From: Bradyrhizobium guangdongense
GTDB taxonomy: Bacteria > Pseudomonadota > Alphaproteobacteria > Rhizobiales > Xanthobacteraceae
Direction: 5' to 3'
DNA: 64,000 bases
NCBI RefSeq assembly: GCF_004114975.1
Contig: NZ_CP030052.1
Location: forward strand, 186,001-250,000
The notes under the pieces are model-generated. The model saw only the letters and a program-made list of their open reading frames with translations, searched no databases and was not told the DNA's origin. How positions within the stretch are numbered: position 1 is the stretch's first letter; each line of letters begins with the position of its first letter. The position numbers and the translations under genes are program-made. Positions 26,778 to 58,759 of this stretch are shown in pieces.

Positions 26778-27872
26778 CTAAATCCAAAGATCAAATCGCT
26801 CAAGCGGCGCGCTGCACGGGGGTCCGTCAGTGGCGAACAAAACACGCTTGCTTAGATCCATAATGATGGCGGAAAGGGTACTATTCGGATACTGCGTATC
26901 CTGGTTCGGGTGACAGCAAATGGATGCCGGGTAAGAGAAATGGTCTTTGAGGCCCAACAAAATATGATCCACATCCACCTGCCCGAGCCTTGAGCGCAGA
27001 TGTCGACCAAAGCGACGGGACCGAAACGGACTGTCGGGCACAAAGCGCTCCCATTCTGAAGGTATTCGTGTTCCCGGCTCAAAATGATTTGCGTGTGAAA
27101 TTACCCCATCCTCAGGATAAATGTACCGTTTGTCATTGGGGGAGCTCTCAATGTTGATAATCTCGCCATCAGCATGGCCAATCAGGTAGTTCATAGAGAT
27201 GTTTCGATCAGCGCGGATAATCGCGCTTATCGCGCGGTCGAATGTCGGCGCCTGAAGGATGGACCGGCACCTCAGCTTAAACGGGGCGGTCATGAGTGCC
27301 GAGCCATCAATAGGCGAAACCAAGCTGTTGCAGACTAGCCCGATCCCAGCTTCATTCAGTCCCGCTATGGGGCCGGCGCAGCCTGCTTCGAAGATGCCCA
27401 GCCATTGCGGGTTAGCGGGCGTCACTACTTTGCCTACAAAAAGGGTGCCCCGAACTGCCGCTTGCCCATCGATCGTTTGCGCCAGCATTGTTGTATTTTG
27501 CGCGGTTACCTCGGGCATTAATCCGGCAGACGTGCAGCCATCCAAAATCCCATACGATAGATCGGCGGCTCGACGTGCCATCAGGCGTAGCCAAATCTCA
27601 TGCCGGACGTTAAGCATCACAACCGTATAGAGGGGCATAAAGGCAGCGTCGGCAATTCCCCTCAGCTCTTCAACGTAGTCGGGTCGTAGATCTTCAAGGA
27701 AGCGCAACCAACCAGTTGCTTCAGCTTGAATTTGCGCAAGATTAGTTCCGTTAGCGCAAAAGCGTTTTAAATAAAAGTCAGCATTGGCCGCGATTTCCGA
27801 TCGCATCAGCTCTCCTTGCTGCTGTCCCCTTTCGCGGGGTATCGCAGTAAAGACGGTAAGCTTAAGACTCAT
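26778..27872 (-). CDS. C45-type Ntn hydrolase / acyl-CoA:amine N-acyltransferase homologue
   Basis: 364 residues from ATG 27872, set by AAGGAGAT 8 bp upstream; the open frame runs further but lacks such a site. YGILDGCTSAGLMPE at about residues 107-121 matches the self-cleavage site of the peptidase C45 / isopenicillin-N acyltransferase family, where the chain is cut before the Cys (Cys113) to expose the N-terminal nucleophile. An alpha-beta-beta-alpha core is suggested by IAGLNEAGIGLVCNSLV and MNYLIGHADGEIINIESS. Family members hydrolyse or form amide bonds between acyl groups and amines. The substrate is unknown. It ends at an IS5 remnant; a GNAT-like gene lies 275 bp upstream on the same strand. 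Confidence 0.75.
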   Translation of the reverse strand: MSLKLTVFTAIPRERGQQQGELMRSEIAANADFYLKRFCANGTNLAQIQAEATGWLRFLEDLRPDYVEELRGIADAAFMPLYTVVMLNVRHEIWLRLMARRAADLSYGILDGCTSAGLMPEVTAQNTTMLAQTIDGQAAVRGTLFVGKVVTPANPQWLGIFEAGCAGPIAGLNEAGIGLVCNSLVSPIDGSALMTAPFKLRCRSILQAPTFDRAISAIIRADRNISMNYLIGHADGEIINIESSPNDKRYIYPEDGVISHANHFEPGTRIPSEWERFVPDSPFRSRRFGRHLRSRLGQVDVDHILLGLKDHFSYPASICCHPNQDTQYPNSTLSAIIMDLSKRVLFATDGPPCSAPLERFDLWI

Positions 27873-28147: not shown

Positions 28148-28828
28148 TCAGTTCAGGTCCGGCGTTACGTCTAACAATTGCTTAAGTTCATAGCCTGTCA
28201 TCCAGAACAGCCAATCGTTAGCGACGATATTCTCTTGCACCAGGTGAATGTCTGCTCCGCCTGGTTCATTGTGAACCGGATCATAGACGTTCTTATCCAA
28301 CGACCACCGCCCAGCTAGGCCACAGAGAAAGTCGGGAGCCCACATCGCAAGACTGACGCCACGCATAGTCCCCGTCATGATCTTGAGCAGGCCCGAGCCC
28401 CTGAAGTCGGGGCGGATCCAGATATCCCCGTGGTACACCACTTTACCTGTAATGCTGCGCGCCATCTGAGCAGTACAAACGCAGCGATCTTCAGGATGTG
28501 CATCTATCGTCGGATTCGCATAGAAGAACTTCAGCGTTTCGAGGTGTGCTGCAAGGGTGGTTTGCGACAGGTCATAGAAGCGCGCGGCCTCGACGAGCGC
28601 CACTTTGTTTTCCTTATCAAAACCCACAAGCCAATACCCTTCGCCCGTTCGAATCGGTGAGCGGTCTGGCCGAAAGATGGGATAAGTATTGGGTTTGTCT
28701 GCTAGCGAGGCTGTGATCGCGATGTACTCGTTGAAATCACACCCAATGGAAAGCCTGATGCCCATTTTCGCGGCCGCGTCATCGTAAACCTGGAGAAAGC
28801 GCAGCAAGGGATTCAAGGTGTATGTCAT
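28148..28828 (-). CDS. GNAT-like acyltransferase (putative)
   Basis: 226 residues from ATG 28828, with AGAGGA about 9 bp upstream. At residues 135-155 GDIWIRPDFRGSGLLKIMTGT resembles GNAT motif A, where an R-x-x-G-x-G/A loop binds the CoA pyrophosphate; the loop here is RGSGLL. The rest (YPIFRPDRSPIRTG, YWLVGFDKENKVALVEAARFYDL) is not recognised. No signal peptide. Same strand as the C45-type gene downstream, so they may be one unit. A role in acylating an amine together with the C45 enzyme is inference. Confidence 0.55.
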   Translation of the reverse strand: MTYTLNPLLRFLQVYDDAAAKMGIRLSIGCDFNEYIAITASLADKPNTYPIFRPDRSPIRTGEGYWLVGFDKENKVALVEAARFYDLSQTTLAAHLETLKFFYANPTIDAHPEDRCVCTAQMARSITGKVVYHGDIWIRPDFRGSGLLKIMTGTMRGVSLAMWAPDFLCGLAGRWSLDKNVYDPVHNEPGGADIHLVQENIVANDWLFWMTGYELKQLLDVTPDLN

Positions 28829-36887: not shown

Positions 36888-38171
36888 TTAAGGCAACGCA
36901 GCCGCGGATAAAATGTCCTCCAAATTTCGTAGTCCGATTCGCGGCGCATTGATCAGAACAGCCATGTTTCCGGGCCTGTGCTGATTCTTCCACATCTTCG
37001 TATGCGCTCGCGCAACTTCCTCCCACGGCAGGACCTCGCTCATACTCGGGTCGATTCGGCGATCGAGCACAAAACGGTTCGCAGCATTTGCCTGTTTGAG
37101 ATTCGCGAAATGAGAACCTTGAATTCGCTTCTGGCGCATCCAGATATAACGGGCATCGAAGGTAAGATTGAAACCTGTTGTGCTGCCGCAAACGACTACC
37201 ATGCCACCGCGCTTTACGACGATCGTCGAGACGGGGAATGTTTGCTCACCTGGATGCTCGAACACAATATCGATATCGCGCTTTCCAGTAACATCCCAAA
37301 TTGCCCTTCCAAACCGCCGCACCTCCTTGAGCCAAGGCCCGTATTGAGGTGAATTTACTGCCGGCATAGGGCCCCAGCAATTGAATTCAGTGCGGACTAT
37401 AACACCCTTTGCACCAAGCGATCTTACATAATCGGCCTTAGTCCGATCGGAAACGACTCCGATTGCATTGGCGCCGCATGCTGTTGCAAGCTGCACTGCA
37501 GATACCCCGAGCCCGCCCGTAGCACCCCAAATCAGCACGTAGTCGCCAGCCTTTAGAATGTGCGGCGGGTGTCCGAACAACATCCGGTAAGCCGTTGCAA
37601 GCGTTAGCGTGTAGCAACAGGCCTGCTCCCAGCTGAGGTGAGCTGGCTTCGGCATCAATTGCCGTGGCTGCACGCGGCAGAACTGGGCGTAAGAACCATC
37701 AGGCGTCTCGTATCCCCAGATCCTCTGGGAAGGTGAGAGGAGCGGTTCGCCACCATTGCAATCCTCATCATCCCCGTCGTCCTGATTGCAGTGGATGACC
37801 ACCTCGTCCCCAACCCTCCACCGGCGCACCCTTGCTCCTACCGCCCAAACCACTCCAGCCGCATCCGATCCGGCCACATGATAGGAGCATAGGTGCACAT
37901 CAAAGGGGGACATCGGCGCCCCTAACGCCGCCCACACTCCGTTATAGTTGATGCCTGCAGCAGCGACCATGACCAATACTTCATCCTCGCCGATCGGCCA
38001 AGTCGGCACCACTTCTACCAGCATCGAACTCTCTGGCGGCCCGTGGCGCTCGCGCCGTATGGTCCACGCGTACATACGTTCGGGAACGTGTCCGAGGGGC
38101 GGCACTTCGCCGACCTTGTACAAATCCTTCTGGCGGGAGGCCTGTCGTGATGTATTGGGGTCCAACTTCAA
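36888..38171 (-). CDS. ccr: Crotonyl-CoA carboxylase/reductase homologue
   Basis: About 425 residues, full length for the family. GEVPPLGHVPERMYAWTIRRERHGPP and VLVMVAAAGINYNGVWAALGAP mark the MDR fold; YVLIWGATGGLGVSAVQLA is the NADPH-binding loop; CNQDDGDDEDCNGGEPLLSPSQRIWGYETPDGSYAQF, IVFEHPGEQTFPVSTIVVKRGGMVV and GSHFANLKQANAANRF are near-diagnostic for Ccr, which reduces enoyl-CoA with NADPH and can carboxylate it (giving ethylmalonyl-CoA from crotonyl-CoA). GAGGAG is followed by TTG at 38171 and TTG at 38165; the second has better spacing. A sigma-54 promoter lies about 90 bp upstream. An IS66 end abuts the stop codon. Confidence 0.88.
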   Translation of the reverse strand: MKLDPNTSRQASRQKDLYKVGEVPPLGHVPERMYAWTIRRERHGPPESSMLVEVVPTWPIGEDEVLVMVAAAGINYNGVWAALGAPMSPFDVHLCSYHVAGSDAAGVVWAVGARVRRWRVGDEVVIHCNQDDGDDEDCNGGEPLLSPSQRIWGYETPDGSYAQFCRVQPRQLMPKPAHLSWEQACCYTLTLATAYRMLFGHPPHILKAGDYVLIWGATGGLGVSAVQLATACGANAIGVVSDRTKADYVRSLGAKGVIVRTEFNCWGPMPAVNSPQYGPWLKEVRRFGRAIWDVTGKRDIDIVFEHPGEQTFPVSTIVVKRGGMVVVCGSTTGFNLTFDARYIWMRQKRIQGSHFANLKQANAANRFVLDRRIDPSMSEVLPWEEVARAHTKMWKNQHRPGNMAVLINAPRIGLRNLEDILSAAALP

Positions 38172-38256: not shown

Positions 38257-38272
38257 AGCAATTAACGTGCCG
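38257..38272 (-). promoter_or_regulatory. Sigma-54 (-24/-12) promoter of ccr
   Basis: On the minus strand CGGCACGTTAATTGCT matches the consensus TGGCACG-N4-TTGCW at every position but the first. It lies about 90 bp upstream of the ccr start, in the correct orientation. I found no exact NifA site (TGT-N10-ACA) upstream, so the activator is open. Confidence 0.75.
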
Positions 38273-38279
38273 CCACAGT

Positions 38280-38682
38280 GAGAGGAGTAGACGGAGGCAA
38301 ACGCTTAACGTGGACACGATGCAAACGGGACAGCTTCACCTTGCACCAGGATCGTCGACCGCGCCTGTCGAGGCTGCACGAAACGCTTCCATTGGAGACT
38401 TCGACTTCTAAGTCTATCTGCCACCATCCTAGCACTACGACGTCGGTAAGTCGGAGTGGACACCTCATCGAACGGTAGACCCATCCAGCCGCTTCGTCGC
38501 GGCCACAGTCAGCGTAGAGAGGACCAATCAACCCTTCTGTCATCGCGCATCCCGAACTGACGACCTTGCGACAGAGGAGATCCATGACGGCAACCAATTG
38601 TAGCTAGCGACCCTCAAGCCGAGGGCCCACGGGCAGAACAGTGCCTTTTCAGATGCGGGGTTTTGTTCCGTCTCGAGTCCTC
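38280..38682. other. Intergenic region, no gene recognised
   Basis: Between the ccr promoter and the 3' end of the acyl-CoA ligase gene. Short open frames exist on both strands but none has a ribosome binding site or family resemblance. No terminator hairpin with a T-tract was seen. Confidence 0.4.
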
Positions 38683-40224
38683 TCAAATCCTGCGTCCTGA
38701 CTTCTCCCAATAAGGATCTTTCAGCAGCCTCTTGAATAACTTGCCAGACTCTTCACGCGGAAGGCTGGTCCGGATCTCGATTATTTTCGGAATCTTGTAG
38801 TCCGCCAACACCGTCTTCAACTTCTCGCGGATGTCATGGACTCTAAGCACCTCCCGTCGGCGCGGTTCGATCACCGCCATCAGTGCCTCGCCAAAGTCCG
38901 CGTCCGGAACGCCAAACACAGCACAGTCTTGAACGCCCGGTATCATATGGAGAGCCGCTTCGATCTCCGCGGGATAAATGTTGACACCGCCTGAGATTAC
39001 AACCTCCCGTTTTCGGTCACAAAGAAATACATATCCATCAGCGTCGATATAACCGAGGTCACCGGAAGCAGTGAAACCGTCGTCATCGGCCTCGGCAGAG
39101 CTCCCAGGTCGATTGTGGTACTTGAACCGTGGGTACCATACGTTGCGTGAACAGATTTCTCCTATTTGTCCGGCCGACAATTCTCTTCCGTCTGCACCAA
39201 TCACACGCAGCTGAACGTGCTCTAGCGGCTTGCCGACCGTTCCCGGCTTTGCAAGTGATTCTCGCGAACTCGCAAATGTTACCGCACCGGCCTCCGTCGA
39301 GCCGTAGAACTCGCATATAATGGGGCCCCACCAATTTATCATGGCATTCTTCACGATCGGGGGGCAGGGCGCAGCCCCGTGGACTACGTGTCGCAAGGAC
39401 GCGAGATCATAGCTTCGTCGAATACTGTCGGGCAGCTGCAGAAGGCGAATAAACATAGTCGGCACCATCAAGATGGTGTCGATCCTCTCCGCCTCTATCA
39501 GCCGCAACAACTCTTCAGGCTCGAACCGCGGCATCAGCACAAGCGCACCACCGCGGCGGCTGAACCACATTCCAAATAAATTCGGCGCTGAATGATAAAG
39601 CGGGCCTGGGAGTAGCGCGCGAGTGCCAGATCCATAGACTATGGCTCGCATTTCCTCCAATCCGATCGCCTGCTCGCTGGTTGGTGGGCTACGACGCACG
39701 CCTTTAGGACAACCAGTCGTTCCTGAGGTGTAGATCATCGTCATCGGCTGCCGCGCGGGCGCTCCTGCAAAGAGCGGCTGATCCGCTATCCACTCTTCAA
39801 AATCCCGCGCGAAGTGCGGCACTTTGAGGCGCGTCCCTTCAATCTTGTACGCCTCTGCTACTTCGGGCGGCGTCGGAACGCTTAGAATTGGCAATCTGCT
39901 AGCGAGATCGGCATCCAACAAATGCAAGAGGTCCGCGTGGCCTATTAGCAAACGTGCTCCACAGTCGGCCAGAATGTACCCGATCTCCTGTCGCTTGAAA
40001 TGCCAGTTTACAGGTACTGCAAGGGCTTCGGCTCTCATGATCCCATCGGTAACTTCGACGAATGCGATATCATTCCGCATTAAGATGCATACACTGTCCC
40101 CTTTCCCAATGCCGAAGCGCTTGAGCCCCCCAGCAACGCGAATTGCGCGATCTGAAACCTCAGAATGACGGCGGCGCCTCTTACCTGAGATAATACCCCG
40201 AAATCGTTTAGACGGCTGATACAT
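38683..40224 (-). CDS. Acyl-CoA ligase / AMP-forming synthetase
   Basis: 513 residues from ATG 40224 with AAAGGAAG 6 bp upstream. ANL superfamily motifs in order: MTMIYTSGTTGCPKGVRR (A3 P-loop), LPGPLYHSAPNLF, CEFYGSTEAGAV (A5), ASGDLGYIDADGYVFLCDR (A7/A8), ISGGVNIYPAEIEAAL, and the C-terminal catalytic Lys in PREESGKLFKRLL (A10). Such enzymes activate a carboxylic acid with ATP to its CoA thioester; the acid cannot be predicted. It lies upstream of ccr on the same strand, each with its own sigma-54 promoter, so the two may act in one pathway feeding reduced or carboxylated acyl-CoA units. Confidence 0.88.
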   Translation of the reverse strand: MYQPSKRFRGIISGKRRRRHSEVSDRAIRVAGGLKRFGIGKGDSVCILMRNDIAFVEVTDGIMRAEALAVPVNWHFKRQEIGYILADCGARLLIGHADLLHLLDADLASRLPILSVPTPPEVAEAYKIEGTRLKVPHFARDFEEWIADQPLFAGAPARQPMTMIYTSGTTGCPKGVRRSPPTSEQAIGLEEMRAIVYGSGTRALLPGPLYHSAPNLFGMWFSRRGGALVLMPRFEPEELLRLIEAERIDTILMVPTMFIRLLQLPDSIRRSYDLASLRHVVHGAAPCPPIVKNAMINWWGPIICEFYGSTEAGAVTFASSRESLAKPGTVGKPLEHVQLRVIGADGRELSAGQIGEICSRNVWYPRFKYHNRPGSSAEADDDGFTASGDLGYIDADGYVFLCDRKREVVISGGVNIYPAEIEAALHMIPGVQDCAVFGVPDADFGEALMAVIEPRRREVLRVHDIREKLKTVLADYKIPKIIEIRTSLPREESGKLFKRLLKDPYWEKSGRRI

Positions 40225-40310
40225 CGCTCTTCCTTTAGTGGAGAAGGGCGACGTCGACGATCCGGCCGTTGGCTGGACATGCCCGAGACACGTGCCCTGC
40301 CTTGCCTCAG

Positions 40311-40326
40311 AGCAAAGCGCGTGCCG
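40311..40326 (-). promoter_or_regulatory. Sigma-54 (-24/-12) promoter of acyl-CoA ligase
   Basis: Minus strand CGGCACGCGCTTTGCT fits GGCACG-N4-TTGCW with correct spacing; only the leading T is C. Predicted start of transcription near 40300, about 75 bp before the ATG. No exact TGT-N10-ACA upstream; the nearest look-alike is TGT-N10-CAC around 40409. Confidence 0.72.
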
Positions 40327-40748
40327 ATTTCATACAAATTGGGACAGTGTAGAAACGCAAGAGACACCTCAGCTGCTCTGACAACTACTATGCTTTTTCT
40401 GACACTCGTGTTTGTCCGCCGCACGCGGGTACCTTTTCATCCGGCTTCACCACTCTGGAGCCCGCGTCGACATTATGGCAAGGCGCGTCGGCCCCCTTTT
40501 CCTGCAACACAAGCTCGCAATCGGAGAACTAAACTCAATCCCATTCGATGTGTTGGAATCGGCTTACTGACCGGCGACGACTTATCTGATGTCGGTCCAC
40601 AGACTTGGTTGTCCCAATATCGCGATCATGATGATGATGGAGATCGACCTGAAGTCGCTGACGAGGGTCGAAATACAGTGCAGGCTAGCTGCGAACCCGG
40701 GTCGTGTTGGCTTTCTTGCAGAGGGCAGAACCAGAAGGAGACGACCAC

Positions 40749-40868
40749 ATGGACCTGAAGTCCGAAATGGGAGAAGTGGCGGCGCCCGATTCCCGCATCG
40801 AAGCCGGTGATCGCGCGAGGGAAACTGCCCCAAGACGACCAACCATCGGAGTTTTCGCGGCACGGTAA
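40749..40868 (+). CDS. Short ORF with good ribosome binding site, possible gene remnant
   Basis: 39 residues, MDLKSEMGEVAAPDSRIEAG... ending FAAR. AGGAGACGACCAC precedes the ATG. The composition looks protein-like and may be the N-terminus of a lost gene, but I cannot assign a family. The rest of 40330-41420 has no gene I can support. Confidence 0.3.
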   Translation: MDLKSEMGEVAAPDSRIEAGDRARETAPRRPTIGVFAAR

Positions 40869-41420
40869 AGGCCAGCGGCGGCCGGTATCGACATGCACCG
40901 CATTCGCCGGCCTTCCGGCTCCCCGCGCCTCGGATCAGAGAGATTCAGGCTCGACCGATCCGTACGTCTTGATCGACATTCGCGATGCCGTCGGATTTTA
41001 GGGCTCCCCAAGGATCGTTTCGTGTGCGGACACACAGTAGTAGCCTCAAGTCATGCTTTGGGCCGCAGCGCGCCGATGTTGCCGATGCGTCCTGGCCACC
41101 CAGCCGCAAGGAGCCATGACTACAAGCTGCATGGCGCCAAATCGCTATTCACGTTTAACATTGCGAGGCAAACGCCGAACTGGCACTGCGAATAACCCGA
41201 AAGAAACACCTAGATACTACTCAGTAACTGGTTTCAAGTTATTATTACAGCCGCCTCAGGCTTTGAACCGCAGGAGGTCATGGCCCGAAGCTGACTTGAG
41301 GCTTTAATCGTTAGGTTGTTTGGACCACAAAGAGTTGACCGTGACACTCTGCGCGGCTGGTTGGATTGACCGCAAGTGCCAGCCCTGAGTGACCCAGCAG
41401 CCCCGCTCTTCCCAACGGGG
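40869..41420. other. Intergenic region, no gene recognised
   Basis: No ORF with a ribosome binding site, no IS similarity I recognise and no strong hairpin. GC content and codon pattern look eroded, as in a former coding region. Confidence 0.4.
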
Positions 41421-41422
41421 AC

Positions 41423-41438
41423 TGTCGCAGATGCGACA
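41423..41438 (+). promoter_or_regulatory. NifA upstream activator site
   Basis: TGTCGCAGATGCGACA, an exact TGT-N10-ACA with additional dyad symmetry, centred about 87 bp upstream of the predicted transcription start of the sigma-54 promoter at 41492. Confidence 0.75.
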
Positions 41439-41491
41439 GCTGTCCGCCTCATGGCGCCTTCCCTTCGGCAAATTCACTCAGACTTTCATTG

Positions 41492-41507
41492 TGGCACAGG
41501 TTTTGAA
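41492..41507 (+). promoter_or_regulatory. Sigma-54 promoter upstream of MATE exporter
   Basis: TGGCACAGGTTTTGAA: perfect -24 element and correct spacing; the -12 element is TTGA in place of TTGC. With the exact NifA site about 60 bp upstream this is a likely NifA/RpoN promoter despite the weak -12. The leader to the exporter start is about 425 nt. Confidence 0.65.
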
Positions 41508-41546
41508 AGGACTTGCTCATCTGCCGGGACGGTAGAAAACGCCCCA

Positions 41547-41945
41547 ATGACAGAGCACTACCTTACGGCACTTCGGCGCATCCTACACTGCGCACTTAAC
41601 CTCAAGACTAGCTGGACAGCGTTAGCGATACTTTCTTGGAGAGAGAGACGCACCAGCGCGCGGCGCTCACTATGGCGGCTTCCGTACGTTCATCATGTCT
41701 TCTTCCAAACCAACATGCACCTTAGCACGTTGATCGCGTTTTCGTTGTCAACGGACACAGGCTCGCTTGGGCCTACCAATGACGGCACTAGCATCGAACC
41801 GGGGCACCGTATCCTGAGGGCTGCGACGCACCTGGTTCTACCTTCTTTACAGAATCAACACCTTTTGCACTCGACGCCCAACATCGCGGGACCGTGGGCT
41901 CGAGGCGGGCAGGCGTCTTCACCGAGCACGAAATACACCAAATGA
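41547..41945 (+). CDS. ORF in the leader of the MATE gene, doubtful
   Basis: 132 residues, MTEHYLTALRRILHCALNLK.... No family recognised and amino acid use is atypical (rich in Arg, Ser, Thr, His). Its stop overlaps the MATE start (ATGA at 41942-41945), which is the only argument for it being translated. Confidence 0.25.
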   Translation: MTEHYLTALRRILHCALNLKTSWTALAILSWRERRTSARRSLWRLPYVHHVFFQTNMHLSTLIAFSLSTDTGSLGPTNDGTSIEPGHRILRAATHLVLPSLQNQHLLHSTPNIAGPWARGGQASSPSTKYTK

Positions 41946-43333
41946 AGCAGCTTTCTGCCTTGCGTCGCAATCCAAGGACACGAACGGTTTTGAGTAGATT
42001 CGCTGTCGAGCTCCGTGCGACCGCGGTGTTGGCTTGGCCAATGGCACTGGCGCAGCTTGCTCAGGTCGCAATGATGGCGACGGATCTTGCCTTTGTTGGT
42101 CGTCTTGGGCCCCGGGAGCTCGCGGCCGCAGCATTGGCCACCACCCTGTATGTCATAAGCTTCACGTTCGGCGCCGGGTTACTGACGCCGATCGCACCTT
42201 TGACGGCACAATCTCTTGCCGGCAAGGGTGCGGCCGATGTGCCGCGTGCACTGCGCATGGGGCTTTGGCTGGCCCTGCTTTTCTCGTTGCCTATTATGGC
42301 TGTTTGTACGGCAGGCGAACAAGTTCTGCTCGCCCTCGGTCAGGAACATTGCGCAGCACGGCTATCTCAGCAGTACCTGCTTGGACTCGCGTGGGGCGTG
42401 ACGCCAGCGCTGTGGTTTCAGGCCATTCGACATTTCATGGGCGCAGTGGGACGGCCGCAACCGATCTTCCGAATTACCCTGGCCGCTATCCCGGTCAACG
42501 CGGCCATTGTTTATCTTCTGGGCTTCGGAAAGCTCGGGCTGCCACCACTAGATCTTCTTGGCGTCGGCATTGCGACCGCCCTCGTAAATTGGGGCATGTT
42601 CGTAGCAGCTCTATGGCCCGCAATAGCTTGCCGCCCGTTCCGCGACTACCAGGTGCTTGCGCACCTGTGGCACTTCGACTGGCCGCTCCTACGAGCGATC
42701 ATTTTGATCGGAGCGCCGATCTCGGTAGCAGTCATCATGCAATACGGCGTGTTCGCCGCCGCCGCACTCCTTGTAGGTAGGATCAGCCCGAGCGCGCTTG
42801 CCGCTCATCAGATTACGATGCAGATCGCCACAATCGCCTACACGGTGCCCTTCGGCATCAGCATGGCGGCCGCAGTGCGGGTCAGTCATGCGGTCGGGCA
42901 CAATGACGCCTCCGGTATCAAGCGCGCAGGCCTGGCTGCGATCCTGCTCGGTGTTTTGGCCTCTGCGCTTGTGACGGTTGGGGTCATTGCGACGCGTTTT
43001 CGGATCGCCGCGTTTTTCTTAAACAAGTCACTGAACGACACGGACACGGCAATCGGACTGACGTCATCCCTCCTTATGGTTGCCTCAAGCTTTTTCGTAG
43101 CTGATGCAGCGCAGGTCATTGCGGGTGGCGGGCTCCGTGGGCTGAAAGACACGGCAAAACCGCTTCTGTTCGCAATCTTTGCGTACTGGCTAATCGGCTT
43201 CCCGGTCAGTTTCGCCTTGAGCTGGGTCTTTGGTGCAATTGGAGTCTGGATCGGGTTATCCGCCGGCGCAATTACCTATGCAGGTTTCCTCGTCACCCGT
43301 TTTCTGTTGCTGGCAAGTCGCTTTACTGTATAG
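41942..43333 (+). CDS. MATE-family multidrug/metabolite exporter
   Basis: 463 residues from ATG 41942. About 12 membrane spans in two homologous halves. LAWPMALAQLAQVAMMATDLAFVGRLGPRELAAAALA is the MATE N-terminal signature with the conserved Asp in TM2 region; the second half opens LIGAPISVAVIMQYGVFAAAALLVGRISPSALAAHQI, and GGLRGLKDTAKPLLFAIFAYWLIG is also typical. These NorM-like proteins export organic molecules in exchange for H+ or Na+ across the inner membrane. The NifA/RpoN promoter upstream suggests export during nitrogen fixation, perhaps of the product of the ccr and acyl-CoA ligase genes (inference). Confidence 0.88.
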   Translation: MKQLSALRRNPRTRTVLSRFAVELRATAVLAWPMALAQLAQVAMMATDLAFVGRLGPRELAAAALATTLYVISFTFGAGLLTPIAPLTAQSLAGKGAADVPRALRMGLWLALLFSLPIMAVCTAGEQVLLALGQEHCAARLSQQYLLGLAWGVTPALWFQAIRHFMGAVGRPQPIFRITLAAIPVNAAIVYLLGFGKLGLPPLDLLGVGIATALVNWGMFVAALWPAIACRPFRDYQVLAHLWHFDWPLLRAIILIGAPISVAVIMQYGVFAAAALLVGRISPSALAAHQITMQIATIAYTVPFGISMAAAVRVSHAVGHNDASGIKRAGLAAILLGVLASALVTVGVIATRFRIAAFFLNKSLNDTDTAIGLTSSLLMVASSFFVADAAQVIAGGGLRGLKDTAKPLLFAIFAYWLIGFPVSFALSWVFGAIGVWIGLSAGAITYAGFLVTRFLLLASRFTV

Positions 43334-43552
43334 GCCGCTCCTATGCCTCTTAAACCCAAGGAGAAGATTCCGTGCTCGCGCGTGCCTCCGGGGTGAACTT
43401 CATGTTCGGCCTTTAAGCAATGAAACGCTGACTGCAGCAGCATTTTTAGCGTTTCGACGGGAGATACTCTCATTACGAAGGCCGCCTTACGAATCGGAGG
43501 AGGCCGCCGGCCACGAAAACAGTCATACAAAAACGGGGTTGCACACCGTCCT

Positions 43553-43631
43553 CACCATGAGCTTACCATCGGGGCTCCCAGTGACTGAATACATCCGTCA
43601 CAATCTGAGCCCCGATGGTAAGCTCACGGTG
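43553..43631. repeat. Long inverted repeat spanning a small ORF
   Basis: Arms of 25 bp (43553-43577 and 43607-43631) with one mismatch, 29-bp loop. The left arm starts CACCATGAGCTTACC and contains the start codon of the 57-residue ORF; the right arm encodes SPDGKLTV. The hairpin would hide the start codon in mRNA. Confidence 0.85.
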
Positions 43632-43730
43632 CGGGCGTCGAAACTAGCGGCCGGGATGACGCAGCCGGAACACCAGGACGAATTCCTGTGCGAAGTCCCG
43701 GAGGGTGCGAAGTTCGTATGGGATCAGTAA
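43557..43730 (+). CDS. Small hypothetical protein (57 aa)
   Basis: MSLPSGLPVTEYIRHNLSPD ... FVWDQ. No family recognised and no clear ribosome binding site (CGTCCTCACC before the ATG). Both arms of a strong inverted repeat are inside the frame, so translation may be controlled by RNA folding, or the frame may be an accident of a palindromic insertion. Confidence 0.4.
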   Translation: MSLPSGLPVTEYIRHNLSPDGKLTVRASKLAAGMTQPEHQDEFLCEVPEGAKFVWDQ

Positions 43731-43989
43731 ATCGAGGGTGTGAGTGACGCTCGATGTAGATGTGATCTGTACTGCGGCCATATTCCATAGCTCGTGTGGC
43801 AGCGAGCGAACGGGGCCTTCGTTCAGAACCGTCGCTCATATAAGAGCGCGTATTCCGCTTTTAAATGACAACGGGCAAATATCCCGGCCTCCTCGGTTGT
43901 TGATTTACTCAGCGCAGCGGCAGGGCGCTATTTTCGCGCCGTTGGCGCACGCGCAACAATAGTCCCCTTCCTACAAGGAAAGAGCGATC

Positions 43990-44148
43990 ATGGCTAAAGT
44001 CCCTCCATTCCATTCGATCAAACCCTATTCAACGAATGTCTATCATGACAACGACAAGTGCACTGAAGGCAACAACATCGAATGGCAGTATCGCCTTCTG
44101 GCGCAGCCGGTCGGCCCCGTTGCGAGCCACTGCATCCGGCTTGCCTGA
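43990..44148 (+). CDS. Small conserved-looking protein (52 aa)
   Basis: ATG 43990 preceded by AAGGAAAGAG. MAKVPPFHSIKPYSTNVYHD then NDKCTEGNNIEWQYR. The core MAKVPPFHS...H-N-x-CTEGNNIE resembles small proteins I recall from rhizobial nif regions; the C-terminal HCIRLA keeps one of the Cys residues. Function unknown. Too short for ordinary gene finding but the ribosome binding site and codon use support it. Confidence 0.55.
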   Translation: MAKVPPFHSIKPYSTNVYHDNDKCTEGNNIEWQYRLLAQPVGPVASHCIRLA

Positions 44149-44379
44149 CTTCAACGGTGGTCGTGGTGTACGGCGCAAGCAGTCCCACGCTTCGTGATTA
44201 TCCAATGCGGCACCGAACAACCTTGTTGGGGAGCACGTCCGCTTCCATCACCATCGGAAGCAATATTCGCGCTTTGGCGGCCTTCTTTCCGGCGATAGTT
44301 AGCGCAAAACGCCGACAAGTCGCATCCGATATGGATTCTAGCCTGCCCGAGCCGCCCCTGTCTTCAAAGGCTCGGGTCC

Positions 44380-44395
44380 TGTCGCAAACGCAACA
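44380..44395 (+). promoter_or_regulatory. NifA upstream activator site
   Basis: TGTCGCAAACGCAACA, an exact TGT-N10-ACA, about 190 bp upstream of the predicted transcription start behind the sigma-54 element at 44553. Confidence 0.7.
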
Positions 44396-44552
44396 CTATA
44401 GCGACCGTATCGCACCACGCTCCTCGGCGGCAGGTATTCTAATAAGTTGGGCAGTTCCGAGGTCTGTTTGGGCGAGCTACGAGATCGGTTTGCCCTTAGC
44501 AAGTCGGCACATGCAAGACAACTGTGGGTCCACGCTGCTTCAGGCCAGCCTT

Positions 44553-44568
44553 TGGCAAGGATTTCGCA
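44553..44568 (+). promoter_or_regulatory. Sigma-54 promoter of the 44610 gene
   Basis: TGGCAAGGATTTCGCA: GG and GC pairs at correct spacing, two mismatches to TGGCACG-N4-TTGCA (C6 to A, T13 to C). Transcription would start near 44579, 31 nt before the ATG. Confidence 0.6.
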
Positions 44569-44609
44569 GGAGATCCCAGCAGATATTGCCGGATTCGCCA
44601 AGAGAGCCG

Positions 44610-44831
44610 ATGCCCATCAATGATGAATTGGCTGCCATGCGTAGTCATCGTAACCGCATTCACCGCTACAGCCAGCTCCTGGAACGCGAGCTGCCAGAGC
44701 ACGATCGCAGCTATTTGGAAGGACGCTTGTCTGAAGAATGCCGCGCGCTTAGACGCCTGACAGACGCCGTTTTTCCCATCGCGCTTGGACTCCCGCGCAG
44801 AATTACTCTTTCCGTACGGTCAGCCGAGTAG
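44610..44831 (+). CDS. Small helical hypothetical protein (73 aa), probable NifA/RpoN target
   Basis: ATG 44610, preceded by AAGAGAG. MPINDELAAMRSHRNRIHRY then SQLLERELPEHDRSYLEGR and LSEECRALRRLTDAVFPIAL: two amphipathic helices, similar in style to small conserved rhizobial proteins of unknown function. The promoter and activator site directly upstream support it as a real, symbiotically expressed gene. Confidence 0.6.
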   Translation: MPINDELAAMRSHRNRIHRYSQLLERELPEHDRSYLEGRLSEECRALRRLTDAVFPIALGLPRRITLSVRSAE

Positions 44832-46115: not shown

Positions 46116-47144
46116 TCAGGCTTCCTTCGCCTGGCCCCAGTCGAACGATGTGCCGTCTACCCAGATACAGTGAAGAACTAGGGCGATCTTCCGCGCGATA
46201 GCAACCTTTGCCTTTCTCATGCCAATCCGCTTGGCAAGCTTCATTCCCCAAGCCTTGAGAGAAGACCATTTCTTCGTCCGATAAAGCAGAACTGTCGCCG
46301 CTTCGAACAGGTAAGTTCGGAGAAGACGGTCGCCCCATCGGGATATCTTGCCATTGATATCCGTTTCGCCAGACTGACTGCGCCGCGGTGTAAGACCCAG
46401 ATAGGCGCCGACGCTCGATGCTGATCGGAATCGCGATGGGTCATCGATCGTATGCCGGAACGTCAAGGCAGTCACCACACCAACACCAGGAACCGTCATT
46501 AAGCGACGCGTCGTCTCATCCGACCTCGCAAGCTGTCGGACTTCATCGTCGAACTTGCTTTGCTGCTTGCAGATCTGCTCATGGATCGACAGAAGCGGCG
46601 CGATCACACCGAGGAGCTGATGACCGTCAGCCAACAGGTCACGGACCAGATTGCGGAACTGCAGGCCTATCGCGCGTGGAAACAGCAGCCCGGATTCTTT
46701 GATCAGGCTGCGGACCTGGTTTTCGATATCTCGACGAATGGCCACGAGCCGGGATCTCGCGACGAGTATCGCGCGAATCTTCTGACTTTCCTCGCTCTTG
46801 ACTTTGACTTCTCGATACCAGCCAACTCGCACCAGTTCGGCCAGACCTCGAGCATCATTCTGATCGCTCTTGTTCATGCGTACCGACAAGGCCGCGTGGG
46901 CATGCCGAGCGTCGATGCAAACCACCGGAAGATCGACCCTGCGAAGTTCATGCCACAGCCAACTCGCCATCGCGCCGGTCTCAAAGCCGATGCGCTCCGC
47001 CTGTGGCGCCCGCTTGCGAAGCAGTGCCGTGAGCGCCCCCGGGTCGGACTTGGCCTTCCCCTCGAACAAGACCTCGCCCTCTTCATTGACCACGCACATC
47101 GAAGTTTCTTTTTGCGATACATCGAGTCCGACATATTGCTTCAT
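46116..47144 (-). CDS. IS110-family transposase, intact
   Basis: 342 residues. DEDD domain: D8 in [14 protein letters not shown] in [12 protein letters not shown], and the D pair in [17 protein letters not shown]-terminal domain: [37 protein letters not shown] and the conserved Ser in [21 protein letters not shown]110 transposases use a RuvC-like site and this Ser, guided by a structured RNA encoded in an end of the element. The ends are not precisely defined; the tip of a second copy lies at 48.03-48.2 kb. Confidence 0.9.
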
Positions 47145-55377: not shown

Positions 55378-56658
55378 ATGAATAACTCTGCCGACCCCTC
55401 ACGTACTCTTCGAACGTTAGAAACGTTGGAATCCAACGTTCGCCTGTACTCGCGTCTCTTCCCAGCGTGCTTTAGTCATGCGCGCGGGCCCTTTCTGCTA
55501 AGCGAGACGGGCGAACGGTTCATCGACTTCTTTTCCGGGGCTGGAGCGCTCAATTACGGCCACAACAATCATCAGCTAAAGGCAGCTATTACAGAATATC
55601 TGGGATCTGATGCTGTCGTTCACGGCCTCGATATGGCCACTCCGGCCAAGGTCGACTTTATGGAGACTTTCAACTCAGTTATTCTTCGTGAGCGGGGCTT
55701 GGATTATCGATTTCAATTTACTGGACCTACAGGTGCCAATGGCGTTGAGGCGGCATTGAAGCTGGCGCGTAAAGTAACCGGGCGCCACAACATCATTTCA
55801 TTCACACGTGGTTATCATGGCCTCAGTCTCGGCGCCGCGGCTGCGACCAGCAGTCGCTTTCTTCGCGAAGCCAGTGGAGTCCCCCTGTCCGGCGTCACGA
55901 TAATGCCCTATGATGGTTATCTTGGAGATGAGATTGATACGGCGGAGCACCTGCGGAACATATTGCTGGACTCTAGCAGCGGCATCGATGCGCCAGCCGC
56001 CATTCTCCTTGAAACAGTACAGGGGGAGGGCGGCATCAACGTCGCTCAAAAGGAATGGCTACGATCCGTACAAGCCCTAGCGGCAGAGATTGGAGCCATA
56101 TTTATCGTCGACGATATTCAGATGGGTTGCGGCCGTACTGGCGATTTCTTCAGCTTTGAGTTCGCCGAGTTGTCACCAGATGTCGTAATATTGTCGAAGT
56201 CCTTAAGTGGATATGGTCTGCCGTTATCCATGTTGTTGATCAAAGAGGCAATTGATATATGGGAACCGGGAGAGCACACGGGCACCTTTCGAGGAAATAA
56301 CCTAGCGCTTGTCTCTGCAACTGCAGCTTTGAATATCTACTGGCGCACTGAGATCTTTTCGCAAAGCATTTATCGACTGGGAACGCTGATGCGTCACCGG
56401 CTTAATGCTATTGCGCGCGCGCATGGAGACCACTTCACTGTCCGCGGCCGCGGAATGGCGCTCGGCTTTGATTGCCGAAATACTCACCTCGCTGAGACTG
56501 CAGCACGCAAGGCGTACGATAGGGGCCTCATCATTGAACGATGCGGCCCGGCGGACGAGGTCATCAAATTCTTTCCTCCGCTAACGATCGACCCGGAGAC
56601 GCTGACTAAGGGTTTGGACATCTTTGAAGATAGCTTAGCGGAAGCAGCCCCGCTCTGA
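55378..56658 (+). CDS. ectB: Diaminobutyrate-2-oxoglutarate-type aminotransferase
   Basis: 426 residues from ATG 55378, with GAAGGTG 6 bp upstream; length fits EctB (about 425). Class III aminotransferase motifs: FIDFFSGAGALNYGHNN, TGPTGANGVEAALKLARKVTGR (PLP phosphate loop), VDDIQMGCGRTGDFFSFE with the Asp, and Lys274 in VILSKSLSGYGLP. These closely fit the EctB family, which makes L-2,4-diaminobutyrate from aspartate semialdehyde and glutamate. ectA and ectC are absent nearby, so ectoine is unlikely; diaminobutyrate may feed another amino acid-derived product. Convergent with an aspartate kinase gene that could supply aspartyl phosphate. The symbol rests on family resemblance only. Confidence 0.8.
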   Translation: MNNSADPSRTLRTLETLESNVRLYSRLFPACFSHARGPFLLSETGERFIDFFSGAGALNYGHNNHQLKAAITEYLGSDAVVHGLDMATPAKVDFMETFNSVILRERGLDYRFQFTGPTGANGVEAALKLARKVTGRHNIISFTRGYHGLSLGAAAATSSRFLREASGVPLSGVTIMPYDGYLGDEIDTAEHLRNILLDSSSGIDAPAAILLETVQGEGGINVAQKEWLRSVQALAAEIGAIFIVDDIQMGCGRTGDFFSFEFAELSPDVVILSKSLSGYGLPLSMLLIKEAIDIWEPGEHTGTFRGNNLALVSATAALNIYWRTEIFSQSIYRLGTLMRHRLNAIARAHGDHFTVRGRGMALGFDCRNTHLAETAARKAYDRGLIIERCGPADEVIKFFPPLTIDPETLTKGLDIFEDSLAEAAPL

Positions 56659-57238: not shown

Positions 57239-58324
57239 CTAGTGAGGTGCTTCCACCCCACTAGTGCGGAGCTCTGCATGGACCCTCTGAGCACAGTAAG
57301 AAGCGGCCTCAAGATCTCGCAATTCGTATGTCTTTGGCTTGGACCCGGTGAGCGCTAAAACAACAATCTTCTGCGCACTCCTCACGGGGTGGATGCCTTC
57401 CCGATGCAGAGCGGTAAGCGCGGCCTCCGCGTCATGCGTCAAATACCCCTCGGGGCTTTCATCCTGCTCGAGATCGATCCACATGATACCAAGCCTTCGT
57501 AAAACGTCTTCAGCATTACGTTTTTCGAAGACGCTTTGAAATGCAACCCGTGTTGCTGACGGGTTGATGACCACGCAAACCCCGCCTCCTGCGTCAGTCA
57601 CCAAAGTACCGGCCATCTCATTCGGCAGTAACGATTTGCAGGAGATGGCTATTCTCCGGCCGGCAGCATAGTCGATTGCGCCATGGTGAAGCACTTTCGC
57701 CCCGCAGCGTGCTATCCGACTTGCGTTGGCATAGGAGACTGTCGGGAGCAGCCTTGCTTGCCTCACAATCCTCGGATCGGCGGAGTAGATGCCACAGACA
57801 TCCGAGTAGACTTCGCAAACGCCACTTCCCACCATATCGGCGGCTATTACCGCAGTCAAATCCGAGCTATTGCGGCCGAGCATTGAGACCCGTCCACCTT
57901 CATCCAGACCCTGCGCTCCGGCAAGGATTACCACGCGGCCATAATCGAGCGCCTTTAGCAGCGGTTTGTTGTCGACCTCCTCGATGACCGTCCTACCTAG
58001 AACCAAGGATGTCTTGATTCCAATCGAATAGCCAAAGAGCGATGATGTCGGCACCGAGTGTCTTTGCAATGCTGCCTCAAGAAGTCCAGCGGAAATCATT
58101 TCTCCCGCTGTCAGGACGGTGTCCAAGGCAACGGTGCTGCAGATTTCATTCACAGAGAGCGCTAGAGACTTCAGTACGTCCGTCTGGCCGTGCATCGCGC
58201 TAACGACGACCACGACTTGCCGCGCGTCATTTGCAAGCCTATCTACTATATGTCTGGAGACAGCGCGGTACGCCTCCGCATCACGAAAGCTCGATCCCCC
58301 AAACTTCATTACTTTGATTGACAT
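57239..58324 (-). CDS. Aspartate kinase, short form
   Basis: 361 residues from ATG 58324 (MSIKVMKFGGSSFRDAEAYR); an in-frame GTG at 58351 is an alternative, and neither has a strong ribosome binding site. KFGGSS is the nucleotide-binding start; LTAGEMISAGLLEAAL, GRNSSDLTAVIAADMVG, CEVYSDVCGIYSADPRIV are catalytic-domain motifs of aspartokinases. The C-terminal part (ATRVAFQSVF to SGVEAPH) is about 100 residues, shorter than the usual double ACT region, so feedback control may be weak. It resembles specialised kinases in diaminobutyrate or ectoine clusters. Convergent with the aminotransferase; together they could channel aspartate to diaminobutyrate. Confidence 0.8.
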   Translation of the reverse strand: MSIKVMKFGGSSFRDAEAYRAVSRHIVDRLANDARQVVVVVSAMHGQTDVLKSLALSVNEICSTVALDTVLTAGEMISAGLLEAALQRHSVPTSSLFGYSIGIKTSLVLGRTVIEEVDNKPLLKALDYGRVVILAGAQGLDEGGRVSMLGRNSSDLTAVIAADMVGSGVCEVYSDVCGIYSADPRIVRQARLLPTVSYANASRIARCGAKVLHHGAIDYAAGRRIAISCKSLLPNEMAGTLVTDAGGGVCVVINPSATRVAFQSVFEKRNAEDVLRRLGIMWIDLEQDESPEGYLTHDAEAALTALHREGIHPVRSAQKIVVLALTGSKPKTYELRDLEAASYCAQRVHAELRTSGVEAPH

Positions 58325-58620
58325 GCGCCGTGGCCCAACGTGCGAGATCACTTGCTTTAACTCACCCGGCGCCGCATTAGATCAGACGACGAGCCGCTTC
58401 GCGCGCTCGACATCCGGCTGCTTCTTGAGAGCTGCTCCTCGCGCTAGGCTTGTCATCGTCGCAGCAATAGCTGTACCACGAGATAGCTCACGATTAGCGC
58501 CGCCCGGCATCTCGCTGGCGGCTTGGGCGTGTTGCGGCAGCACAGGACGATGCACCTAAACAATGGCGCGCTAGTTGCCTGAGACCTCCATCCCGCGTTG
58601 TTCGATGTCGCCCATCTTGA
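58325..58620. other. Intergenic region, no gene recognised
   Basis: Short open frames only. Should hold the promoter of the aspartate kinase gene but I see no clear -35/-10 or -24/-12 on the minus strand. Confidence 0.35.
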
Positions 58621-58621
58621 T

Positions 58622-58637
58622 TGTTGCGGTTGCCACA
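58622..58637 (+). promoter_or_regulatory. NifA upstream activator site
   Basis: TGTTGCGGTTGCCACA, an exact TGT-N10-ACA, about 140 bp upstream of the predicted transcription start of the sigma-54 promoter at 58744: the classic spacing. Confidence 0.78.
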
Positions 58638-58743: not shown

Positions 58744-58759
58744 TGGCACACCTCTTGCT
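58744..58759 (+). promoter_or_regulatory. Sigma-54 promoter upstream of rpoN1
   Basis: TGGCACACCTCTTGCT, matching TGGCACG-N4-TTGCW at all but one position. It points toward rpoN1, whose start is 827 bp downstream with no convincing gene between, so the transcript either includes a long leader or encodes a small RNA or peptide. Confidence 0.8.

Follow-up and report, generated by a model that had tools for sequence, protein, structure and literature searches.

A candidate sigma-54-driven specialised-metabolism region with ccr, acyl-CoA ligase and MATE exporter genes on a Bradyrhizobium symbiotic plasmid

Described systems and the locus in Bradyrhizobium guangdongense

Metabolite pathways under the control of NifA are known as a kind, the precedents being the rhizopines, the NifA regulon of M. 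loti, and matE and ectB of P. phymatum. These are the described systems closest to the subject of this study, namely the genes for a crotonyl-CoA carboxylase/reductase (ccr), an acyl-CoA ligase (ACS) and a MATE exporter, with their promoters, in a stretch of 64,000 nucleotides of Bradyrhizobium guangdongense DNA (contig NZ_CP030052.1, positions 186,001 to 250,000; referred to as the window and numbered from its first letter). With a confidence slightly above even, these genes are assigned to a region for specialised metabolism on the symbiotic plasmid of peanut Bradyrhizobium, driven by sigma-54 and predicted to be switched on together with the nif genes in bacteroids.

The rhizopine (mos) system of Sinorhizobium meliloti L5-30 resembles the proposed reading in that nodule bacteria make a small molecule under NifA, and homologues of an aminotransferase and of a transmembrane transport protein are among its synthesis genes; it differs in its inositol-amine chemistry, and no CCR, acyl-CoA ligase or AAT-type enzyme is mentioned in the part of the report considered (PMC6668481). 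The comparison is one of logic only. In the NifA-RpoN regulon of M. loti R7A, metabolic genes of the symbiosis island (diterpenoid, P450, methyltransferase and OmpW units) lie behind TGGCACG-N4-TTGAA or TTGCW-like boxes, some of which are preceded by nif gene fragments; as a difference, no ccr or MATE unit appears in Table 1 of that paper, the sections considered being the basis here (PMC3538637). In P. phymatum, plasmid pBPHY02 carries a ddl-MATE-NRPS (nonribosomal peptide synthetase)-SDR cluster and an ectB-GNAT pair, and nodule transcripts of matE, ddl, ectB and the GNAT gene depend on NifA, according to the portion of the paper used (PMC8305402). A box of 17.0 bits at ddl is a further likeness, whereas the AMP-binding (NRPS-sized) and ATP-grasp chemistry is different. 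The P. phymatum MATE protein was considered as an orthologue of that in the window and rejected; it is regarded as an analogue because the identity is only 23%. On pBPHY02 (L202 16022-24630) the order is ddl, MATE, AMP-binding protein (~1445 aa) and SDR with a strong box before ddl, an arrangement that resembles a natural-product cluster.

No description of a ccr/ACS/MATE cluster was found in the literature searched, which was mainly open access, with subscription papers mostly outside its scope. A word search of the main text of two papers on peanut plasmids (PMC7324677, PMC13429744) gave no mention of crotonyl, nifA or a transcriptome, the cluster is not named in the parts considered of PMC4842269 and PMC4999443, and a survey of methanol growth uses ccr, in the passages available, only as a marker of the ethylmalonyl-CoA pathway (PMC12628762). 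The original prediction, made from the letters of the DNA, had called the system undescribed, which holds for the cluster within this literature and not for NifA-controlled metabolite pathways as a kind.

The plasmid contig that holds the window comprises 981,946 bases, or 11.6% of the 8.44 Mb genome, and also carries nifDKENX, nifB, nifH and fixAB, roughly 100 kb from the window. A region of 9.1 kb is 100.0% identical across six peanut-associated plasmids. The presence of genes was compared over a panel of 265 Bradyrhizobium genomes, to which handles of the type G255 refer. Boxes of the -24/-12 type were scored in bits with a position weight matrix (PWM) whose weights are not fitted to data; the pattern YGGCAYR-N4-TTGCW was counted over the whole genome with the reversed pattern as control. 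An exact NifA-type upstream activating sequence (UAS) was defined as TGT-N10-ACA and was searched for up to 300 nt upstream of boxes; this range applies to the negative results at the ccr, ACS, nifB, dctA and 62B boxes below. The sites under study were chosen post hoc from the 64 kb window.

Promoters of the MATE, ccr and acyl-CoA ligase genes

The MATE gene (41945-43333, + strand; PF01554, TIGR00797; longest open reading frame from 41894, RefSeq start 42041) is preceded by an exact NifA-type UAS, TGTCGCAGATGCGACA (41423-41438, +), at -69 from a nifH-type -24/-12 box, TGGCACAGGTTTTGAA (41492-41507, +), which has GA in place of GC at -12. TTGAA at this position is an attested variant, because in M. 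loti and R. etli the nifH promoter carries A in place of C at -12, according to the material considered from PMC3538637. The MATE box is the single occurrence of TGGCAYR-N4-TTGAA on the plasmid. A MATE match at 1e-100 was obtained in 250 of the 265 genomes, and TGGCAyr-N4-TTGAA was found upstream in 21 of the 23 best non-peanut MATE loci listed. In 19 of these 21 boxed loci a single exact TGT-N10-ACA precedes the box by 59-101 nt; two exact copies occur in none of them, and a further, imperfect copy can often be made out. The distance from box to matched start is 463-611 nt in 20 boxed loci and 214 nt in the remaining one. Among 20 lower-ranked MATE paralogues, hand-picked from the lower part of the match list and not random, box and UAS were found together in one, plus one near-miss (L171); the comparison with the 23 best loci gives a Fisher value of 5e-9 for related rows that are not independent. 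The MATE loci near ccr in G038, G108 and G131 carry the TTGAA box as well and are in neither count. Predicted NifA control of the MATE unit is well supported by these motifs.

A leader of ~440 nt (41508-41944, +) separates the box from the MATE homology. It contains 1-nt indels between relatives, and its rate of divergence is close to that of four-fold sites (near-neutral); with no consistent open reading frame in addition, its interpretation as a gene was rejected. A known RNA was likewise rejected: three loci searched against Rfam gave nothing at E values up to 0.1, and no similarity was detected between the leader and the nif-region loci compared.

The ccr gene (36888-38171, - strand; RefSeq start 38165) matches TIGR01751 with 580 bits (cut-off 379), and the ACS gene (38683-40224, -) matches NF009071 with 752 bits (cut-off 701). 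Their boxes, CGGCACGTTAATTGCT (38257-38272, -) and CGGCACGCGCTTTGCT (40311-40326, -), share the form CGGCACG-N4-TTGCT, score 15.2 bits each, and stand 101 nt before the longest ccr open reading frame and 102 nt before the ACS ATG, respectively. The positions and orientations originally given for the boxes at ccr, ACS, MATE and a downstream 73-aa gene were all recovered on re-reading and scanning, and the gene classes assigned to ccr, ACS and MATE agree with the family matches. The genome as a whole contains 41 copies of YGGCAYR-N4-TTGCW and 7 of the reversed control; 19 of the 41 sites lie on the symbiotic plasmid, compared with the ~0.8 that an even spread of the control count would give. The plasmid set includes nifH, nifD, nifB, dctA, ccr, ACS and a box on the rpoN side, and the nifH and nifD boxes start with C, as do those of ccr and ACS. 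In simulated sequence, a stretch of 300 nt holds a box of at least 15.1 bits with p ~1.8e-3; the real loci compared abound in such promoters and give a rate of 9.5e-3. In the window, 6 sites of at least 14 bits were found by PWM scan against 1.7 expected, a modest excess.

A ccr match at 1e-150 was obtained in 29 of the 265 genomes (7 essentially identical, 4 at 80%, 3 at 77% and 15 lower), the window gene being the sole match in its own genome. In the tree, the ccr genes of the peanut plasmids, of 62B (another peanut plasmid), and of the 80% and 77% groups form one clade of 9 rows (support 100/100), which is long-branched and far from the remaining 15 rows. The box is present in 6 of the 9 clade rows: it is strong (17.6 bits) in the four 80% orthologues and identical in 62B, where the shared DNA block stops 32 nt past the box. 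No box of at least 12 bits was found within 1.4 kb in the 15 rows outside the clade, and its distribution on the tree requires two changes, not one. The enzymes are intact and under purifying selection, with ccr identities of 0.967 at second codon positions and 0.765 at four-fold sites relative to 62B, and of 0.915 and 0.404 relative to G255. On these grounds the ccr and ACS boxes are good candidates for sigma-54-type promoters; for ACS it is the plasmid site count alone that makes the case a good one. A tree of ACS proteins, two rows of which (L088 and L095) proved to be open reading frames in the wrong frame, was left out of the evidence. Control of both genes by NifA is likely, with moderate confidence. 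In G209 (L102 2775-3740) ACS is found beside ccr only in pieces, and may be lost or misassembled.

The closest solved structure to the CCR protein is 4gi2 (753 bits), the CCR of the R. sphaeroides ethylmalonyl-CoA pathway; the motifs NYN, WGYE and GSH, presumably those of the catalytic pocket, are kept in the alignment. The window gene is unlike that enzyme's in being plasmid-borne, in having a sigma-54 box, and in that partners of the pathway were not found in the genome. In the search for ethylmalonyl-CoA mutase, four matches to the MM-CoA-mutase family (PF01642) occur in the genome as two adjacent pairs with none alone, and were read as methylmalonyl-CoA mutases; mesaconyl-CoA hydratase (PF19315) is represented by two fragments with 27.8 and 26.1 bits (cut-off 26.5) and a stop in each frame. 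With these partners not found and the clade separate, a role of ccr in the ethylmalonyl-CoA pathway is disfavoured.

Gene order in relatives and competing explanations

Two further genes of the window enter the comparison. One encodes a C45/AAT-type enzyme (26778-27872, -; PF03417) with an invariant DGCTS around the expected nucleophile; it is matched at 1e-60 in 12 of the 265 genomes, namely all 11 with a ccr of at least 80% identity, plus G139, whose C45 protein is 41% identical and which has no such ccr. The other, hyp (28148-28828, -), encodes a conserved hypothetical protein whose family consensus contains an RG-G motif reminiscent of GNAT. The order in G255 is hyp-C45-amidase-ccr-ACS-MATE, and the same genes, with the amidase in pieces, are found in B. 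rifense (G093); ccr adjoins ACS in both, with strong boxes at ccr and ahead of the MATE gene. On the 62B plasmid, genes for Ldh_2, a CmcI-type methyltransferase, TauD and BKACE near ccr each have a box of their own (13.6-17.6 bits), and those for an SDR, an AMP-ligase and a BioF-like protein have none. In G108 and G131, genes for EctB, hyp, MATE, a methyltransferase, CCR and two enoyl-CoA-hydratase-like proteins stand together, MATE with the TTGAA box and ccr without a strong one. The genes for ACS, CCR, C45, hyp, aspartokinase, EctB and MATE appear to be parts of a wider metabolic region, mosaic in make-up and marked by sigma-54 boxes. The system had been described as small, which proved too narrow, given boxes also at aspartokinase, on the rpoN side and at dctA here, and at Ldh_2, CmcI-type, TauD and BKACE genes in relatives.

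A number of observations weigh against a single NifA-switched region. No exact UAS was found at the ccr box, the ACS box or the five 62B boxes (ccr, Ldh_2, CmcI-type, TauD and BKACE). Strong boxes are missing from three ccr genes of the clade (G193, G131 and G108), and in the 23 ACS loci that are not identical to that of the window no box reaches 12 bits within 1.4 kb; in the 600 nt preceding hyp, C45, ectB and ompW of the window no box exceeds 7 bits, and in NGR234 ectB and hyp have no box. The apparent make-up of the module is mosaic: the MATE protein in the common slot of G255 and B. rifense has no BLAST-level similarity to that of the window, the 62B plasmid has ccr and neither a close C45 nor a close MATE, and among the 21 boxed MATE genomes clade ccr occurs in G193 only. 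The hyp family, with 152 homologues in Bradyrhizobium, is widespread there and is therefore not specific to the cluster, and its reading as GNAT consists of a short motif only.

It is very improbable that the boxes are chance motifs picked out of 64 kb. The unfitted matrix, the post hoc choice of sites, the missing excess in the PWM scan of the window at scores below 12 bits and a 73-aa gene box that is unremarkable by itself would all fit that explanation, but the genome-wide and plasmid counts and the conservation across orthologues speak against it, and for ccr, ACS and MATE it was rejected on the basis of the site counts, the MATE controls and the simulated rates. An improbable, though less remote, explanation is that ccr and ACS do have sigma-54 promoters at these boxes, but that their activator is a different enhancer-binding protein (NtrC, DctD or one encoded on the plasmid), with an indirect link to nitrogen fixation. 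The missing exact UAS at these and the 62B boxes would be accounted for in this way; the nifB and dctA boxes of the plasmid, however, equally have no exact UAS within range (those of nifH and nifD have one 113 and 116 nt upstream), and UAS copies do occur at -126 of the B. rifense ccr box, at -109 of the B. rifense hyp box, and at the G255 BKACE box. The proposed link to nitrogen fixation stands for MATE, with a UAS and nifH-type box conserved in the genus, and is less firm at ccr and ACS, where NifA control is no more than likely.

Unlikely, yet deserving more weight than either of these, is the explanation that the units are under sigma-54 control without forming one pathway: MATE would be a general NifA-dependent exporter of bacteroids, and ccr and ACS would work in the acyl-CoA or poly-hydroxybutyrate metabolism of bacteroids, one example being a redox sink that acts on crotonyl-CoA. 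It draws on the near absence of clade ccr from the boxed non-peanut MATE genomes and on 4gi2, an enzyme of the ethylmalonyl-CoA pathway, as the closest solved homologue. Against this, ccr, ACS and MATE are again adjacent in G255 and B. rifense, where a different MATE fills the slot, MATE stands near ccr in G131 and G108 as well, C45 co-occurs with ccr, and the CCR falls in its own long-branched clade in a genome where the partners of the ethylmalonyl-CoA pathway were not found. A single pathway uniting the ccr, ACS and MATE units is placed a little on the probable side. The original proposal of a single metabolite system is borne out as to sigma-54-type promoters on the ccr, ACS and MATE units, and is weakened as to one pathway by the occurrence of the MATE promoter without clade ccr.

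Diaminobutyrate genes, possible product and minor features

In the same window, ectB (55378-56658, +) encodes a diaminobutyrate transaminase (TIGR02407, 583 bits), and an aspartokinase-like protein (57239-58324, -; 'uridylate kinase' in RefSeq) matches NF005154 with 209 bits, below the cut-off of 376. The aspartokinase-like gene has a box, TGGTACAGCTATTGCT (58463-58478, -; 15.9 bits), divergent from the rpoN-side box TGGCACACCTCTTGCT (58744-58759, +; 17.6 bits), which lies 843 nt before rpoN; a single UAS between them (58622-58637) lies 159 nt from the former box and 122 nt from the latter. The aspartokinase box and UAS are also present in 62B. No Pfam match above cut-off was obtained for hyp, and in a profile search unrelated chains rank first, with a single diamine-acetyltransferase match (E = 1.3) below unrelated ones. 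Homologues of hyp follow ectB within ~610 nt in R. leguminosarum pRLN3, R. binae and R. bangladeshense, and one is located 16 kb from ectB in NGR234. The pRLN3 ectB has its own nifH-type TGGCAyr-N4-TTGAA box with no exact UAS, and its neighbourhood contains nifHDKEN, Asd and a 44% aspartokinase homologue. On pRLN3 (L204 10934-17433), TlpA, ectB and an ATP-grasp unit beside nifHDKEN have a sigma-54 box each, and hyp is situated between ectB and the ATP-grasp gene.

Diaminobutyrate is made by Dat in pea bacteroids of R. leguminosarum, and its authors saw no NifA site, in the part of the report considered (PMC10228743). In nodules of a P. phymatum nifA mutant, matE, ectB and the GNAT gene are changed by -8.2, -7.6 and -8.1 log2 units, and 2,4-diaminobutanoate is lower, as given in the portion used (PMC8305402).

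The gene content of the region suggests a specialised metabolite, perhaps an acylated amine, that bacteroids would produce and secrete along the lines of a rhizopine. ACS would convert a carboxylic acid into its CoA ester, CCR would reduce or reductively carboxylate an enoyl-CoA, the C45/AAT-type enzyme and/or hyp would move the acyl group onto an amine, which aspartokinase and EctB could supply as 2,4-diaminobutyrate, and MATE would export the product. A NifA-switched pathway of this form, in which a CCR-made acyl-CoA and aspartate-derived 2,4-diaminobutyrate are joined by an AAT-type or GNAT-like acyltransferase and the product leaves through MATE, might represent a new, rhizopine-like class of nodule metabolites, which is a speculative proposal. 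An acyl-diaminobutyrate as the product is doubtful to the same degree, as is the wider notion that this class has a diaminobutyrate core (aspartokinase, Asd, EctB and hyp) shared in parts by symbiotic plasmids of Rhizobium, Sinorhizobium and Bradyrhizobium. What bacteroids make and export beyond nitrogen is poorly known; the conservation of the exporter's NifA-type promoter and of the sigma-54-driven ccr is a pointer to a specific product that can be tested for, and such a product could affect competition, nodule persistence or host compatibility in the symbioses of peanut and other Bradyrhizobium hosts. The genes concerned are knock-out targets for metabolomics.

Downstream of MATE, the 73-aa gene (44610-44831, +) encodes a member of a genus-wide small-protein family, with matches in 205 of the 265 genomes at 1e-5 and no known family above cut-off. 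Its UAS-like site TGTCGCAAACGCAACA (44380-44395, +; TGT-N10-ACA) and -24/-12-like box TGGCAAGGATTTCGCA (44553-44568, +; TGGCAAG-N4-TCGCA; 13.6 bits) are present as first described and make a weak candidate promoter: the UAS is not retained in the closest relative (G113, 74% identity), which has GG-N10-GC at the same place, and no box of at least 10 bits was found within 500 nt of seven further relatives (L185-L191, 55-59%). Between MATE and this gene (43546-43638) a strong inverted repeat gives sub-threshold microRNA matches in Rfam; the scan of the window returned three Rfam matches, all below gathering scores, the best of which reflects this repeat. A box of 14.2 bits, TGGCATGAACTTCGCA (46940-46955, -), within the open reading frame of an IS110-family transposase is probably due to chance. 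Outside the window, dctA (C2:277459) has a sigma-54 box 565 nt upstream, and a dctA-like gene of G255 has one too (L121:1906).

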